This document shows positions 6,223 through 37,224 of a DNA stretch of 64,000 bases, one piece after another. Made by a program: the position numbers and the translations under genes. The stretch covers positions 636,872 to 700,871 of the forward strand of contig NZ_FXWZ01000003.1 of NCBI RefSeq assembly GCF_900184225.1. The letters are read 5' to 3'. This DNA is from Brevibacterium ihuae (GTDB lineage: Bacteria; Actinomycetota; Actinomycetes; Actinomycetales; Brevibacteriaceae). Each line of letters opens with the position of its first letter. Within the stretch, counting starts at the first letter, position 1. The notes beneath the pieces were generated by a model. That model saw only the letters and a list, made by a program, of their open reading frames with translations, had not been told where the DNA came from and did no database searches.

Positions 6223-6236
6223 TCCGCGTCCCGCAT

Positions 6237-6280
6237 GCCCGAGGGGCGGCGCTCCGTGATCGGAGTGCCGCCCCTCGGGC
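6237..6280. terminator. Bidirectional terminator between convergent genes
   Basis: A 20-bp stem with one G-U pair (6237-6256 with 6261-6280) around the tetraloop TGAT. It starts 14 bp after the nitronate monooxygenase stop and can serve the convergent MBL gene too. Confidence 0.8.
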
Positions 6281-6345
6281 ATTCGTCGCCGCAGCTCCCG
6301 GGTCGGCCCCCTTCCGGAATACCGGACCGGGCGCCGGGGCCGCTC

Positions 6346-31446: not shown

Positions 31447-33060
31447 ATGACGAAGACCTTCCGCGCGATCTCGACCCCGCACCACCTGGCGACCGAGGCC
31501 GGCCGTCAGATGTTCGAGGCGGGCGGCAGCGCCGTCGACGCCGCGATCGCCGCCGATGCGGTGCTCGCCGTCGTCTACCCGCACAACACCGCGATCGGCG
31601 GAGACCTCATCGCGCTCGTGTCGACCCCCGGTGCCCCGGAGCCCGCTCTCGTCGATGCGTTCGGCTATGCCCCGCGCGACGTCCGACCCGAGCAGTGGGG
31701 CACGAGCGGGCGCGTTCCCGCCTTCGGACCGCCGTCCATCACCGTGCCCGGCACCCTGCGCGGCTGGCGGCATCTCCATGACGCCTACGGCAGGCTGCCC
31801 TGGGACACGCTCCTCGAGCCCGCGATCACTGCGGCCCGCGACGGCTACCCGATCAGCCGGTCGCTCCGCGGCGCCATCGACCGGACCGCGGCGTCCGGGG
31901 CCGAGGGGCGAGACTTCGTCGAGGCGTTCTTCGGACCGGAATGGGAGACCGCGAACACCGCCTCGAACCCCGCGCTCGCACGGACGCTCACCCGTCTCGC
32001 CGCGGCCGGGCCGGACGACTTCTACACCGGTGAGGTCGCTGCCGCCGTCCTCGCCTACCTGCGATCGGTGCGGCCGGAGTTCACCGCCGCCGACCTCGCG
32101 GACTACGCGGTGCGGACCACCGAGCCGCTGAGCACCACGTTCGGCGGGTACACCGTCCACACCGGCGGGGCGCCGTGCCAGGGCTTCGCGCTCCTCCGGT
32201 ACCTCGACGAGCTCGCCGAGGCGGTGGCCGCCGGGGCTCGGTCCGACGAGGCAGTGACCGGCGGCGGCGCGGCCCCAGCGAGCGAGGTGCGTCCCGAGCT
32301 GCTCGCCGACACCGCGCTCGCCCGGATCTGGGCGGATTCCTTCGCCCACTCGGATGCCCTGCGCGATTCGATCCTCACCGAGGACACCGACCCGGCGGCG
32401 CTGCTCGACCGGTCACTGGCCGGCGCGGCTGCGGGAGAGCGCGCGGGCGCCTCGGATGCGGGTGGGGCCGGTGCCTCGGCCCCGGCCGACGGCGACACCG
32501 TGGGCATCGCCGCCCACGACGGCGAACTGAGCATCTCGCTCATCCAAAGCCTGTACTCGGCGTTCGGCTCACGGTGCTTCGATCCGCGCACCGGGATCGT
32601 GTTCCAGAACCGCGGGTCGATGTTCTCCCTCGATCCGGAGTCCCCGCAGTTCGTCCGCGGTCGGGCACGCCCGCCCCACACGCTCATGCCGGTCATCGTC
32701 ACCGACGCCGAAGGCCGGCCCGCGATCGTCCAGGCGACGATGGGCGGCAAGGCGCAGGCGCAGATCCACGCGCGGCTCTTCACCCACCTCGTGCGCGGCG
32801 GCACCGCCGAACAGGCGGTCGCTCTCCCCCGCTGGGTCACGGGAATCCGCCATCCCGGTGACACCCCGCACACCGTCCACATCGAGGCGGACGTCCCCGC
32901 CGCGGTCGTCGAGGTGCTCGAGGACTCGACCCCGGAGCCACTGCAGCGGACCGCCGCGCTCACCGATTGGATGGGCCACGCGAACGTCATCGATCTGCGC
33001 GGCCCCGCACCGGCCGCGGCCTCAGACCCGCGCGCCGACGGCTCCGCCTGGGTGGGCTGA
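31447..33060 (+). CDS. Gamma-glutamyltransferase family protein
   Basis: A 537-residue Ntn-hydrolase precursor related to gamma-glutamyltranspeptidase. The large-subunit part begins with HLATEAGRQMFEAGGSAVDAAIAADAVLAVVYPHNTAIGGD. The predicted cleavage site precedes T351 in GDTVGIAAHDGE, and the small subunit has QNRGSMFSLD and PPHTLMPVIV, all family marks. No signal peptide is seen, so it probably acts in the cytosol; actinomycetes with mycothiol still carry such enzymes for gamma-glutamyl or acyl amides. Its mRNA is probably leaderless. The last bases and the following 30 bp are repeated downstream of the DUF559 unit. Confidence 0.85.
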   Translation: MTKTFRAISTPHHLATEAGRQMFEAGGSAVDAAIAADAVLAVVYPHNTAIGGDLIALVSTPGAPEPALVDAFGYAPRDVRPEQWGTSGRVPAFGPPSITVPGTLRGWRHLHDAYGRLPWDTLLEPAITAARDGYPISRSLRGAIDRTAASGAEGRDFVEAFFGPEWETANTASNPALARTLTRLAAAGPDDFYTGEVAAAVLAYLRSVRPEFTAADLADYAVRTTEPLSTTFGGYTVHTGGAPCQGFALLRYLDELAEAVAAGARSDEAVTGGGAAPASEVRPELLADTALARIWADSFAHSDALRDSILTEDTDPAALLDRSLAGAAAGERAGASDAGGAGASAPADGDTVGIAAHDGELSISLIQSLYSAFGSRCFDPRTGIVFQNRGSMFSLDPESPQFVRGRARPPHTLMPVIVTDAEGRPAIVQATMGGKAQAQIHARLFTHLVRGGTAEQAVALPRWVTGIRHPGDTPHTVHIEADVPAAVVEVLEDSTPEPLQRTAALTDWMGHANVIDLRGPAPAAASDPRADGSAWVG

Positions 33061-33092
33061 CCAGCACCGCCCGGGTACCTGAGCCCTCGTTC
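33053..33092 (+). repeat. Left imperfect direct repeat
   Basis: Begins inside the ggt stop region: TGGGCTGACCAGCACCG, then CCGGGT and CTGAG.CCTCGTTC. It matches 34727-34769 at about 36 of 40 bases with one 3-nt gap. Confidence 0.65.
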
Positions 33093-33131
33093 GCGCTGGC
33101 TGCGACTTCGGCTAGTGGACTACTTCCGTCC

Positions 33132-33193
33132 AACTGCGCGGGATCTCTCGATCTGCGCGCAATTGCGCGCAGATCGAGAGATCTCGCGCAGTT
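33132..33193. repeat. 62-bp near-perfect palindrome (left)
   Basis: Centred on AATT at 33161-33164. All 31 base pairs match but one (a G-T at 33141/33184). Each arm carries CTGCGCG twice, at a 19-bp pitch (33134 and 33153). It may also terminate ggt. Confidence 0.9.
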
Positions 33194-33380
33194 CGGTGAT
33201 GGCACGGCACGAGGCAGCGCGGCCTACGTTGGCACGAGAGTACGGCTTGAGGTGACGTGTGTGTGAGCGGCCCGAGGAGAGCGGACCCTCGCCGGTGCAT
33301 CGGACCTGTGGAGGGCGGGCGGTTTTCCACACTCCCCCGGTTGCGCCGCGCAAGGACTGCCGTTCGGCCCATGATCGAGC

Positions 33381-34547
33381 ATGGTTGCCGTATTCACCTA
33401 CTCCGACGTCGCCCATCTCCCCTCGGTCGAGCAGCGGCTGCGAGCCGGCTTGAATTGCTGCCTCGAGAGGATCTCCTCAGGGGTCTACGAGGTCGTCTCG
33501 CTGTGCGCGGTGTCAGAGCACCGGCCATTCGGGTACTTCGTCGACGATCCCAGCACCCTGCGTCCTCCGGTAACGGGGATCGCATCCGGGCGCAATCACG
33601 ATCCGCTGTGGCGCAGGTATGTTCGCGATCGGCACCTCGCCTGGATCCGCGCACACGGGTCCATACGTGCCGAGGACGTCGTCAGTCATCGGTCGGCTGC
33701 CCTGGTGCACGGAGTGCCGTACATCGGACCCGAACCCGGCCGGATCGAGCTGGTGAACCCGGTCGCGAGCCGCTCCGGCCGTTCCATCCACCGGCGCCAG
33801 CGCACCATTCCCGAAGCCCACACGATGCGCCTCGTCGACATCCCGGGGCCGAGTTCCGCAAGCGTGATCCCAGCGACGTCTTCCTCCGTCCCGCTTCATC
33901 TGCAGCACAAGTCCATCACCCTCGACGCCCCGGTGTCCGCAGCGGATGGTCTTCGCATCACCACCCCGGCACGCACTGCGGTCGACCTGGCCAAGGACTG
34001 CGGGATTCAATCCGGGGTCGCCGCTCTCGACTCCTACCTCGCACACGGTGAGCTGGCCGGTGGCCCGAAGAACCGCTTCACCGCGTTCCCTCCTGCAGAG
34101 GATGTCGTCGCTGTGCGACGGGAAACGCTCTCCTCGATCATCGAGATCGCCGGACGCGGTCCCGGACGGCGGCGACTTCTCACTGCTGTCGACTGGGCAA
34201 CCGGACTGGCCGAATCCCCTGCGGAGAGCCTGGCGACGGTGGGGTTCCGTCATCTCGGCATCACCGATGTGCAGCAGCAGGCATGGATCCACGATGCGGC
34301 AGGCACTCGAGTGGGTCGAGTCGATTTCCTCATCGAGCGAGCGCGGGTGGTGATCGAGATCGACGGCATGGAGAAGTACGCCTCGGGCTTCGACCCGAAT
34401 CTCATGCAGCGCGACGTCCTCATGGCCGAGAAGGAGCGCGAACACCGGATCCGCCGGTGCGGATACACCGTTCTCCGACTCACGTGGGCCGATGTCATCG
34501 ACCTGCAGCGGTTCCGCCGCGCCCTCCAGCGCGTGGGCCTCGTCTGA
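33381..34547 (+). CDS. AbiEi-like N-terminus plus DUF559 (VSR-like) nuclease protein
   Basis: A 388-residue protein. The first ~150 residues look like the winged-helix/AbiEi-type region seen in actinobacterial DUF559 proteins (ISSGVYEVVSL.., HRSAALVHGVPYI). Residues ~275-388 form the DUF559 PD-(D/E)xK fold: ESPAESLATVGFRHLG, GRVDFLIERARVVIEIDG with the D...ExD acids, then QRDVLMAEKEREHRIRRCGYTVLRLTW. The active-site acids are intact, so DNA cleavage is plausible; VSR relatives nick mismatches. GC and codon use are less extreme than neighbours, which suggests transfer. A CATGAT box 5 nt before the ATG may give a leaderless mRNA. No toxin partner is present. Confidence 0.75.
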   Translation: MVAVFTYSDVAHLPSVEQRLRAGLNCCLERISSGVYEVVSLCAVSEHRPFGYFVDDPSTLRPPVTGIASGRNHDPLWRRYVRDRHLAWIRAHGSIRAEDVVSHRSAALVHGVPYIGPEPGRIELVNPVASRSGRSIHRRQRTIPEAHTMRLVDIPGPSSASVIPATSSSVPLHLQHKSITLDAPVSAADGLRITTPARTAVDLAKDCGIQSGVAALDSYLAHGELAGGPKNRFTAFPPAEDVVAVRRETLSSIIEIAGRGPGRRRLLTAVDWATGLAESPAESLATVGFRHLGITDVQQQAWIHDAAGTRVGRVDFLIERARVVIEIDGMEKYASGFDPNLMQRDVLMAEKEREHRIRRCGYTVLRLTWADVIDLQRFRRALQRVGLV

Positions 34548-34590
34548 GTCAGCCTCACTCCGGACCAGGTTCGCAGGACGACGCCATCGA

Positions 34591-34650
34591 ACTGCGCAGT
34601 ATCCCGCCATCTGCGCGCAATTGCGCGCAGATCAGCAGATACCCCGCAGT
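34591..34650. repeat. 60-bp palindrome (right), same design as left
   Basis: Centred on AATT at 34619-34622. It shares the 24-bp core (half-site ATCTGCGCGCAA, 34609-34620, plus its complement) with the left copy. The outer arms pair with 5-nt and 2-nt internal loops. CTGCGC again recurs at a 19-bp pitch (34592 and 34611). Confidence 0.85.
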
Positions 34651-34726
34651 ACGGGGCAGAAGCACGACCGAGCGGACCGTGCGATCACTGGATGACCACA
34701 CCCCGTCCAGACAGCGCACCGACCGT

Positions 34727-34769
34727 TGGGCCGACCAGCACCGACCGGGTGGGCCCTGAGTCCTCGTTC
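34727..34769 (+). repeat. Right imperfect direct repeat
   Basis: TGGGCCGACCAGCACCG, ACCGGGT, GGGC, CCTGAGTCCTCGTTC; it pairs with 33053-33092 and closes the candidate unit. Confidence 0.65.
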
Positions 34770-34806: not shown

Positions 34807-37224
34807 TCAGCGCGCCGGGGTGAAGTACAGCGCGCCGAGCGCCGGCACCGTCACCGCCGCCGAGGCATCGAAGCCGTTGAATCCCTCGGACTCGCCGTCG
34901 ATCCACCCCATGTTCCCGACGTCGGACCCGCCGTACGTCTCCGCATCGGTGTTGAGCCTCTCCGTCCACACCCCTCCGAACGGCAGCGGGATCCGGTAGT
35001 CGCTCAGCGTCTGTCCGGAGAAGTTCACCACGCACACGAGCGGCTGCCCGGAGGCCGACCAGCGGACGAACGACAGGACCGAGTTCCCGGAGTCAGCGCC
35101 GTTGAGCCACTGGAACCCGGCCTGGACCCCGTCCTGCTCCCACAGCGCCGGCGACTCCTGGTAGAGCTGGTTGAGGTCGCGCACGAGACGCTGCACCCCG
35201 CGGTGCCCGGGGATGTCGGTGAGCCACCAGTCGAGTCCGTGCTGCTCGGACCATTCGGCCTCCTGGCCGAACTCCGAGCCCATGAAGACGAGCTTCTTGC
35301 CCGGGTGCGCCCACTGGTAGGCGAAGAACGATCGCATCCCGGCGAGCTGCTTCCACCGGTCGCCGGGGAACCGGGCGAGGAGCGAGCCCTTGCCGTGGAC
35401 GACCTCGTCGTGCGAGATCGGCAGCACGTACTGCTCGGAGAACGCGTAGACGAGCGAGAACGTGATGTCGTTGTGGTGCCAGCTCCGGTACATCGGATCG
35501 CGTCCGACGTAGCCGAGGGAGTCGTGCATCCATCCCATGTTCCACTTGAGGTCGAAGCCGAGTCCGCCGCCCGAGGTCGGGGCGGTGACGCCGGGGAACG
35601 CGGTCGACTCCTCGGCGATGATCGCCACCCCGGGGTGGGTCTTGCCGACGGTCGCCGTGACCTCCTGGATGAACCGGATCGCGTCGAGGTTCTCGCGCCC
35701 GCCGTGCTCGTTGGGCACCCACTGGCCGTCCTCGCGCGAGTAGTCGAGATAGAGCATCGAGGCGACGGCGTCGACGCGCAGGCCGTCGATGTGGAACTCC
35801 TCGATCCAGTAGAGCGCGTTGGCGACGAGGAAGTTCCGCACCTCGGGCCGGCCGTAGTCGAAGATCAGCGTGCCCCAGTCGGGGTGCTCACCGCGCCGCG
35901 GGTCCGGGTGCTCGTAGAGCGGTTCGCCGTCGAACCGGGCGAGCGCGAAGGAGTCCTTGGGGAAGTGGGCGGGGACCCAGTCGAGGATGACCCCGATCCC
36001 TGCCTCGTGCAGGCTGTCGACGAGGAACCGGAACTCGTCCGGGGACCCGAAGCGCGAGGCCGGGGCGTAGTACGAGGTGACCTGGTAGCCCCAGGAGCCG
36101 CCGAAGGGGTGTTCGGCGACGGGCATGAGCTCGACGTGGGTGAATCCGAGCTCGGACACGTAGTCGACGAGCTCGCGCGCGAGCTCGCGGTAGCCGAGCC
36201 CGAGGCGCCACGACCCCAGGTGGATCTCGTAGGTGGACATCGGGCGGTCGGCTGGCACCTCCGCGTCGCGGGCCGCGATCCAGCCGGAGTCGCGGAAGGA
36301 GTAGGCGGAGTCGGCGATGACCGAGGCGGTGCCGGGCGGCACCTCGGCGCTGCGGGCGAGCGGGTCGGCCTTGTCGATCCACCGGCCGTCGCGGGTGAGG
36401 ATGCGGTACTTGTAGGTCTCGCCCGCCCCGAGCTCGGGGACGAAGATCTCCCACACGCCGGTGGAGCCGAGCGAGCGCATCGCGTGACCGCGCCCGTCCC
36501 AGCCGTTGAAATTGCCGACCACCTGGACGGCCCGGGCGTTGGGGGCCCACACCGCGAAGCCGGTCCCGGTGAGCGGATCGCCGCCGGGCACATCGTACGA
36601 GCGCACCTGGGAGCCGAGGACCGCCCAGAGCTTCTCGTGGCGTCCCTCGGAGATGAGGTGGAGGTCGAGCTCGCCCACGGTGGGCAGATACCGGTACGGA
36701 TCGTCGACGACGACCGGCCCCGCGCCCCAGTCGACCTCGAGGCGGTAGTCGGGGATCTCGGTGAGTGGCAGCCGGGCCTCCCACACCCCGCTCCCGACGT
36801 GCTCGGCCGGGGTGCGCTCCCCGTCGACGAGCACGGAGACGGCGTGGGCCATGTGCTTGACGGTGCGGACGAGGATTTCGGAGCGGGTCGCCGAGGCGTG
36901 CGGGGACGATGTGGGACCCACGGTCGGTCGGGTCGACGGGACCGGCGGAGCCTGGGCGCCCGACGCGACGCCCGGTGCGGCGGAGTCGCGCTCAGCGCCT
37001 CCGGACGGAGCCGGGATCGGGGAACCGGCCGCGGCGGGTGAAGCAGGAGCCACCGGAGCCGCGGCCGAGGCGGGTGCCTCGGGGGCGGGCGGCGCCGTAG
37101 GAGCGGTCGGGCCGGTCCCGGCGTCCTCCGCGGCGTCGACGAGGTGCGCGCCGAGCAGACCGTGCGGGTCGAAGTGTGCACCGGCGGCGATCGTCTCGAG
37201 CAGGTCGGGGGTGAGTTCGCTCAT
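34807..37224 (-). CDS. glgB: 1,4-alpha-glucan branching enzyme GlgB
   Basis: An 805-residue GH13_9 enzyme that cuts an alpha-1,4 chain and reattaches it through alpha-1,6. After a short N-terminus (HFDPHGLLGAHLV) there is an unusual ~80-residue Pro/Ala/Ser linker (residues ~32-115), then the CBM48 domain, the barrel (DGLRVDAVASMLYLDYSR, AIIAEESTAF, LPISHDEVVHGKGSL) and the C-terminal beta domain. It is last in the order glgE-maltokinase-glgB and adds branches to the linear glucan made by GlgE. The ATG has an AGGAGGATGAC-type site in front. Confidence 0.95.
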   Translation of the reverse strand: MSELTPDLLETIAAGAHFDPHGLLGAHLVDAAEDAGTGPTAPTAPPAPEAPASAAAPVAPASPAAAGSPIPAPSGGAERDSAAPGVASGAQAPPVPSTRPTVGPTSSPHASATRSEILVRTVKHMAHAVSVLVDGERTPAEHVGSGVWEARLPLTEIPDYRLEVDWGAGPVVVDDPYRYLPTVGELDLHLISEGRHEKLWAVLGSQVRSYDVPGGDPLTGTGFAVWAPNARAVQVVGNFNGWDGRGHAMRSLGSTGVWEIFVPELGAGETYKYRILTRDGRWIDKADPLARSAEVPPGTASVIADSAYSFRDSGWIAARDAEVPADRPMSTYEIHLGSWRLGLGYRELARELVDYVSELGFTHVELMPVAEHPFGGSWGYQVTSYYAPASRFGSPDEFRFLVDSLHEAGIGVILDWVPAHFPKDSFALARFDGEPLYEHPDPRRGEHPDWGTLIFDYGRPEVRNFLVANALYWIEEFHIDGLRVDAVASMLYLDYSREDGQWVPNEHGGRENLDAIRFIQEVTATVGKTHPGVAIIAEESTAFPGVTAPTSGGGLGFDLKWNMGWMHDSLGYVGRDPMYRSWHHNDITFSLVYAFSEQYVLPISHDEVVHGKGSLLARFPGDRWKQLAGMRSFFAYQWAHPGKKLVFMGSEFGQEAEWSEQHGLDWWLTDIPGHRGVQRLVRDLNQLYQESPALWEQDGVQAGFQWLNGADSGNSVLSFVRWSASGQPLVCVVNFSGQTLSDYRIPLPFGGVWTERLNTDAETYGGSDVGNMGWIDGESEGFNGFDASAAVTVPALGALYFTPAR

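Follow-up and report, generated by a model that had tools for sequence, protein, structure and literature searches.

Among described systems, the closest to the one reported here is that of REPIN/RAYT, repetitive extragenic palindromes (REPs) with REP-associated tyrosine transposases, in which the enzyme gene is flanked by palindromic repeats and tens of extragenic copies occur, their sequence tied to the enzyme (PMC3116915). CGTC-tagged REPs are also abundant and form stem-loops tagged at one end, and no dedicated transposase is reported to have been found for them (PMC3733652). Here we analysed a stretch of 64,000 nucleotides of the Brevibacterium ihuae genome (the window; its genome is G000), in which a DUF559 gene lies between two matched 60-bp palindromes, together with related genes and palindromes in other genomes. 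The best reading is that DUF559 gene and palindromes make up a REP/RAYT-like system that is unrelated to REP/RAYT by descent; we lean modestly towards the view that the encoded protein is a nuclease which binds palindromes in a sequence-specific way and has the 60-bp palindromes as its recognition sites, gene and sites forming one co-evolving system.

The DUF559 gene (33381..34547, + strand) has an intact reading frame for a 388-aa protein. The left palindrome (33132..33193) pairs at 30 of 31 positions without a loop and is the top palindrome of the window, with a score of 28.5 versus a maximum of 14.5 in 15 Markov resamples; the right one (34591..34650) is weaker, with 23 of 30 pairs, and has the same centre and layout. 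An identical 24-bp core, ATCTGCGCGCAATTGCGCGCAGAT, occupies 33151..33174 in the left and 34609..34632 in the right palindrome; no third match was detected in the window at ≤3 mismatches, and 0 were found in 100 shuffles. A chance origin of the window palindromes was ruled out by the Markov resamples, the core shuffles and the flanking controls given below. The G+C content of the unit is 66.0%, compared with 71.6–71.7% in the 5 kb on each side, and the encoded protein is AbiEi/Vsr-like, not a transposase. The recount thus bore out what the earlier note had read here, namely a near-perfect left palindrome with a right counterpart of the same centre and layout, an identical core in the two, and a lower-GC gene for an intact nuclease in a unit without a transposase.

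Flanking by matched palindromes recurs across the gene family. For 91 related genes (the 31 first found and the next 60 in listing order, matches to two parts of one gene being merged), a matched pair was identified around 45, versus 0 of 237 shifted intervals; when real gene boundaries, set by a home-made gene caller, were used, 32 of 60 DUF559 genes and 0 of 263 other genes were flanked by a matched pair, and therefore chance flanking is excluded. Grouped at 60% protein identity, the 91 genes fall into 41 clusters, of which 20 include at least one flanked gene, and each flanked subfamily has its own palindrome sequence; the second DUF559-type gene detected in G000 likewise has its own pair, unrelated to the palindrome family of the window (type 1). 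Counting flanked genes only, and with pairs that are not independent, the palindrome type was shared (score ≥20) by 59/59 gene pairs at ≥80% identity, 6/15 at 60–80%, 13/184 at 40–60% and 0/732 below 40%. Phylum-wide, a DUF559-type match was found in 119 of 296 genomes and a matched pair at 8 of 29 loci (one of the 8 already among the 91; no control set); in G244, which belongs to a different family of the phylum, 5 copies of the cognate palindrome were counted, 2 of them at the gene, against 0 in nine other genomes tried. Among the matches listed, up to 19 AbiEi/DUF559-type matches occur per Brevibacterium genome, gene parts counted apart. Some DUF559-type reading frames are short (148–243 aa; L065, L075 and L082), seemingly truncated or decayed, yet the short frame of L065 has kept its matched palindrome pair.

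The 388-aa protein comprises an AbiEi-like part (~1–275) and a Vsr/DUF559-like nuclease domain (~277–388), and its predicted model shows the AbiEi-like part joined to an I-Bth0305I/Vsr-like nuclease with a Vsr-like PD-(D/E)xK fold; a phmmer search of the PDB with the window protein gave no credible match. In an alignment of 32 sequences E278, E282, Q300, R313, D315, G329, K332 and Y333 are invariant, all eight columns falling in the nuclease domain and none in the AbiEi-like part; E278, E282, D315 and K332 are candidates for the catalytic motif of the EDxHD/Vsr-like family. Purifying selection acts on the gene, with ratios of non-synonymous to synonymous substitution rates (dN/dS) of 0.05–0.28 in 12 pairs, and of 0.31, at a dS of ~1, between the alleles of the window and of the sister genome Brevibacterium sp. 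CS2 (CS2). A Vsr-like fold, and near-perfect palindromes that could extrude, would also suit a nuclease that recognises structure, cutting cruciforms or hairpins once extruded and so keeping in check palindromes that something else spreads; this we consider very unlikely, as the palindrome sequence is particular to each subfamily and follows the allele, and a purely structure-specific enzyme needs no such match.

Dispersed copies of the core, for which the earlier note had proposed a search, are present: 14 matches were found in the genome at ≤3 mismatches, 2 flanking the gene and 12 elsewhere, versus 0 for a reversed control. Type-1 palindromes are laid out as ACTGCGCGGTATC arms, a ~10-nt spacer and a GCGCAATTGCGC centre. 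A 16-mer, with 1 mismatch allowed, had 15 and 19 matches in the two genomes of the genus that carry a close gene and 0–2 in 55 others, at least 2 of the 15 lying in no above-threshold palindrome; the full-end type-1 form was found among named GTDB genomes only in CS2, a set possibly without the window's own genome. The CS2 gene occupies the same locus between ggt and glgB, likewise between palindromes, with ~17–23 further palindrome copies elsewhere, and is more diverged than its neighbours (protein identity 54–59%; DNA 68–72% versus 76–82% for ggt and 88% for glgB). The earlier note had named two findings as adverse to a tie between gene and palindromes, and neither was borne out as worded: most copies do lie elsewhere than at the gene, yet the genomes in which they occur are those that carry it; and the gene is indeed fixed at the same locus in the sister genome, but with further palindrome copies in other places.

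Palindrome families occur mostly in genomes that carry the cognate gene, as is best seen for a second family (family 2). Its gene is present at ≥84% identity in 15 genomes, 13 of which carry 29–59 palindrome copies, while among the 42 genomes without it G008 has 22 copies and the others 0–8; at least 20 copies were thus found in 13/15 genomes with the gene versus 1/42 without (Fisher p = 6e-10). Both low-copy carriers, G050 and G044, have altered palindromes: G050, with an allele at 84%, carries 16 copies of a variant of its own, of which two other genomes have a single copy each and the remaining 54 none, and the palindromes at the G044 gene begin CCGACGG, outside the search pattern.

All 34 type-1 copies with examined context in G000 and CS2 are intergenic. 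Among the 33 with two neighbours, which come from two species and are not independent, 19 lie between convergent genes versus 69 of 299 background gaps (p = 9e-5), and 2 between divergent genes versus 76 of 299, with gene boundaries from a home-made gene caller that missed the DUF559 gene of the window. This placement, and the hairpin-keeping changes in G000 and family 2 described below, would be expected of bidirectional terminators or 3′-end stabilisers acting throughout the genome and at the RNA level only, with the DUF559 genes as passengers. We find that reading scarcely probable: chance flanking is excluded by both sets of controls, the palindromes appear and disappear with the cognate gene, and the spacer arms of CS2 are not kept paired. 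An RNA-level role is thus already unlikely as the sole cause, and is possible as an added role of the dispersed copies.

Comparison of the two species showed that most compared sites stay in place while their sequence shifts. By their ends 20 copies were found in the G000 stretches compared, of which 15 could be anchored in CS2 and 5 could not, and at 13 of the 15, among them the two at the gene, both species have a palindrome; in the direction from CS2 to G000, 15 of 19 anchored copies are occupied, 7 of 26 could not be anchored, and in two cases a pair of CS2 copies corresponds to a single copy of G000. One half of the G000-type spacer was seen in 14/20 G000 copies and 0/26 CS2 copies. At 8 of the 13 shared sites G000 has the G000-type spacer and CS2 another, and at the other 5 G000 carries a CS2-like spacer, 4 of these lying in stretches at least 93.8% identical on both sides. 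Stretches of ~94–99% identity (L163, L172 and L157 versus L144, L153 and L137 of CS2) were observed between the two genomes, which over the stretches compared are mostly 80–92% identical; they suggest recent exchange, and their palindromes keep the CS2-like spacer. As to gain of copies into empty sites, occupancy differs at some sites, with 4 CS2-only sites counted and 2 G000-only sites that lie in poorly aligned DNA, and no clean lone insertion was seen between G000 and CS2 among the sites inspected.

Sites that are mostly common to both species (13 of the 15 anchored copies) and change in sequence with the allele, next to a protein with an AbiEi-like part, would also fit a regulon or nucleoid sites, in which a DNA-binding regulator like AbiEi has 15–60 operator-like sites that follow its specificity by ordinary selection, the nuclease domain being secondary. 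Such a role appears unlikely to us, given that the copies sit at gene ends rather than at promoters, as the excess between convergent and the scarcity between divergent genes show, and that all eight invariant columns lie in the nuclease domain.

The arms of the palindromes carry compensated changes in G000 and in family 2. The G000 spacer arms covary, with 82% of cells paired versus 61.2% in shuffles and 36 two-sided cells versus 12.2 (0 of 500 shuffles in both cases). An earlier count on 34 copies had yielded 104 two-sided cells versus 50.6, and because a palindrome finder had supplied that set, with a bias towards paired arms, the count was repeated on 46 copies chosen by their ends only, where the spacer pairs alone gave 116 two-sided cells versus 56.6 (0/500); in neither set did more pairs show a two-sided change than in shuffles (128/500 for 34 copies and 373/500 for 46). 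In family 2, compensated changes at shared sites were observed in many species, and at three shared sites the numbers of two-sided compensated, one-sided and two-sided unpaired cells were 5/24/4, 21/24/13 and 58/64/5, three copies that did not fit the pattern having been dropped.

Genes other than DUF559 are bracketed by palindromes too, which corrects the picture given in the earlier note. In G038 an acetyltransferase (GNAT) gene lies between two family-2 palindromes where G021 and G013 have one palindrome and no gene (flank identity 92–94% and 83–89%, respectively; the G020 stretch examined for this site had no homology), and because both have the single palindrome without the gene, a gain is the simplest account of the bracketed state in G038. 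Another acetyltransferase gene of G038, distinct from the first, is bracketed as well. In CS2, a glyoxalase-family gene directly after the DUF559 unit (L140:10273-11274; C1:436273-437273) and a DUF3592 gene each lie between palindromes at places where a single palindrome stands in G000, with no gene at the former site; the two differences may reflect gain in CS2 or loss in G000. In G000, a C39-like peptidase gene is bracketed by palindromes of a third family with CGAGTGGTCRTGTTCGG arms (L156:130-189 and 1601-1660; C3:213629 and 215100 of G000), which has one related copy, L168:463-524, 1.25 Mb away. A single site when empty and a gene between two sites when filled were thus found for the G038 GNAT gene and the two CS2 genes, cases that are few and were picked where a difference was seen. 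Three further size differences between G021 and G038 were rejected as cassettes, being an IS110-type gene, an rve-type gene and other genes without palindromes. Yet another dispersed palindrome family in G000, with GCAATTTCC...GGAAATTGC type arms, a loop of ~7–11 nt and no partner gene known, was noticed at L174:4322, L157:9959, L158:7012, L161:12385 and L167:15195, and at L138:8492 in CS2.

In integron attC or pdif gene cassettes, genes are bracketed by recombination-site repeats, and the bracketed genes with a single site in a sister genome resemble them. At three brackets of G038 the outer arms match those of lone copies, while 5 of the 6 inner arms do not, a pattern to be expected if recombination took place within the core of the palindrome. 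The enzyme may capture genes: it would open the palindromes, and core recombination would insert genes as cassettes (DUF559 itself, the acetyltransferase, glyoxalase-family, DUF3592 and peptidase genes), the outer arms coming from the old site and the inner ones from the cassette, in an integron-like manner with a Vsr-like homing-type nuclease instead of an integrase. We regard this as a tentative possibility, and a doubtful one. Unlike integron or pdif cassettes, none of the units examined was seen to have an integrase (no genome-wide recombinase search was made), the palindromes are long and near-perfect, and most copies stand alone. Host recombination of RecA type, or insertion sequence elements with an unlinked transposase, could instead move and homogenise palindromes that the nuclease simply uses. 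In G038 an IS110-type transposase gene immediately adjoins one family-2 palindrome and an rve-type transposase gene lies inside another (L286:10226-11710 and L251:7238-8949), where G021 has an uninterrupted palindrome; both point that way, as does the fact that bracketed genes can arise or vanish through direct-repeat recombination. The tie to a single gene family, allele by allele and across several genera of the phylum, makes such an origin quite unlikely.

For the palindrome-binding nuclease that we favour, we propose that the AbiEi-like part would read the inverted repeat, probably as a dimer with one subunit per arm, and that the C-terminal Vsr/I-Bth0305I-like domain would cut or nick at the palindrome. 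The break would be repaired from another palindrome copy, so that the population becomes homogenised (concerted evolution), and repair might occasionally place a palindrome, or a piece of DNA that ends in palindromes, at a site that is new or already has one; gene, flanking pair and dispersed copies would then be one selfish or domesticated system. Such a nuclease with repair from copies is the most economical model, and would account for the cognate flanking, the shared sites with population-wide change, the compensated arms and the occasional insertions. Simple recombination between direct repeats could also give the bracket pattern of G038. The spacer arms of CS2 show no covariation (58.5% paired versus 61.6% in shuffles), only the ends and centre being conserved, as though this population were older or less active. 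Because the CS2 arms are unpaired, our confidence in this explanation was lowered by a small step, and stays a little on the favourable side.

The earlier note had likened the unit to the REP/RAYT design with a Vsr-like nuclease in the place of the transposase, and the 14 core copies, the matched flanking of half the genes and the co-distribution support this likeness, a spread driven by the nuclease being what we infer from them. As in REP/RAYT, dispersed extragenic palindromes are cognate to the gene that they flank. The differences are that a Y1 (HUH) tyrosine transposase stands there and an AbiEi/Vsr-like nuclease between the repeats here, that the repeats here are ~50–80 bp, that sites here mostly keep their place while changing sequence, and that REPs there have a one-end GTAG/CGTC tag, whereas neither string occurs in the type-1 consensus or the L002-type left palindrome. 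The family 2 consensus carries both GACG/CGTC and CTAC/GTAG strings, a likeness to CGTC-tagged REPs as well. The DUF559-palindrome system is thus functionally parallel to REP/RAYT yet falls outside it because it has no Y1 transposase; grouping by life style alone could place it with systems of the REP/RAYT kind. With EDxHD homing endonucleases such as I-Bth0305I, it shares a predicted Vsr-like PD-(D/E)xK fold, and differs in having numerous candidate sites in each genome, of which two flank the gene, and in the AbiEi-like part that replaces the known DNA-binding arms. From type IV toxin–antitoxin AbiEi it differs by the fused nuclease domain and by the lack of an AbiEii (DUF1814) toxin gene adjoining the window gene, which was checked at this locus only. 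No paper that connects DUF559, AbiEi or Vsr-like genes to dispersed palindromes was found in a search that covered subscription journals poorly. The system is set apart as new because no known family has all its defining features present here.

The neighbours of the window unit are ggt, for a gamma-glutamyltranspeptidase (31447..33060, + strand), on the left, and, convergent with it, glgB, for a glycogen branching enzyme (34807..37224, − strand), on the right. Outside the palindromes lies a direct repeat, whose left copy (33053..33092, +) is the ggt 3′ end with the following bases and whose right copy lies at 34727..34769 (+). The ~40-bp repeat of the earlier note proved real, with 24 nt at 92% without gaps, but is no part of the general anatomy: it is a duplicated ggt 3′ end, present beyond the right palindrome in CS2 too. 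Its local score of 32 is unusual yet within the extreme of the null, 1832 mismatched left/right flank pairs with a 99.9th percentile of 29 and a maximum of 36. A general target duplication was rejected, for the window locus alone among the 45 flanked exceeds that percentile. The second strongest palindrome of the window (6232-6285; 25-bp arms, 4-nt loop) is terminator-like and looks ordinary, with no close relative among the G000 and CS2 stretches compared.

AbiEi/DUF559-type genes are without known role here, and about half of those examined now have a candidate DNA substrate, which can be read per genome, allele by allele; binding and cutting are therefore directly testable. If our reading is true, the REP/RAYT life style would have had an independent origin based on an unrelated nuclease, and the partner of REP families that lack a transposase could be sought along the same lines. 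The population-wide palindrome change at shared sites offers a natural experiment, in which a DNA-binding protein and all its sites would have switched specificity together.

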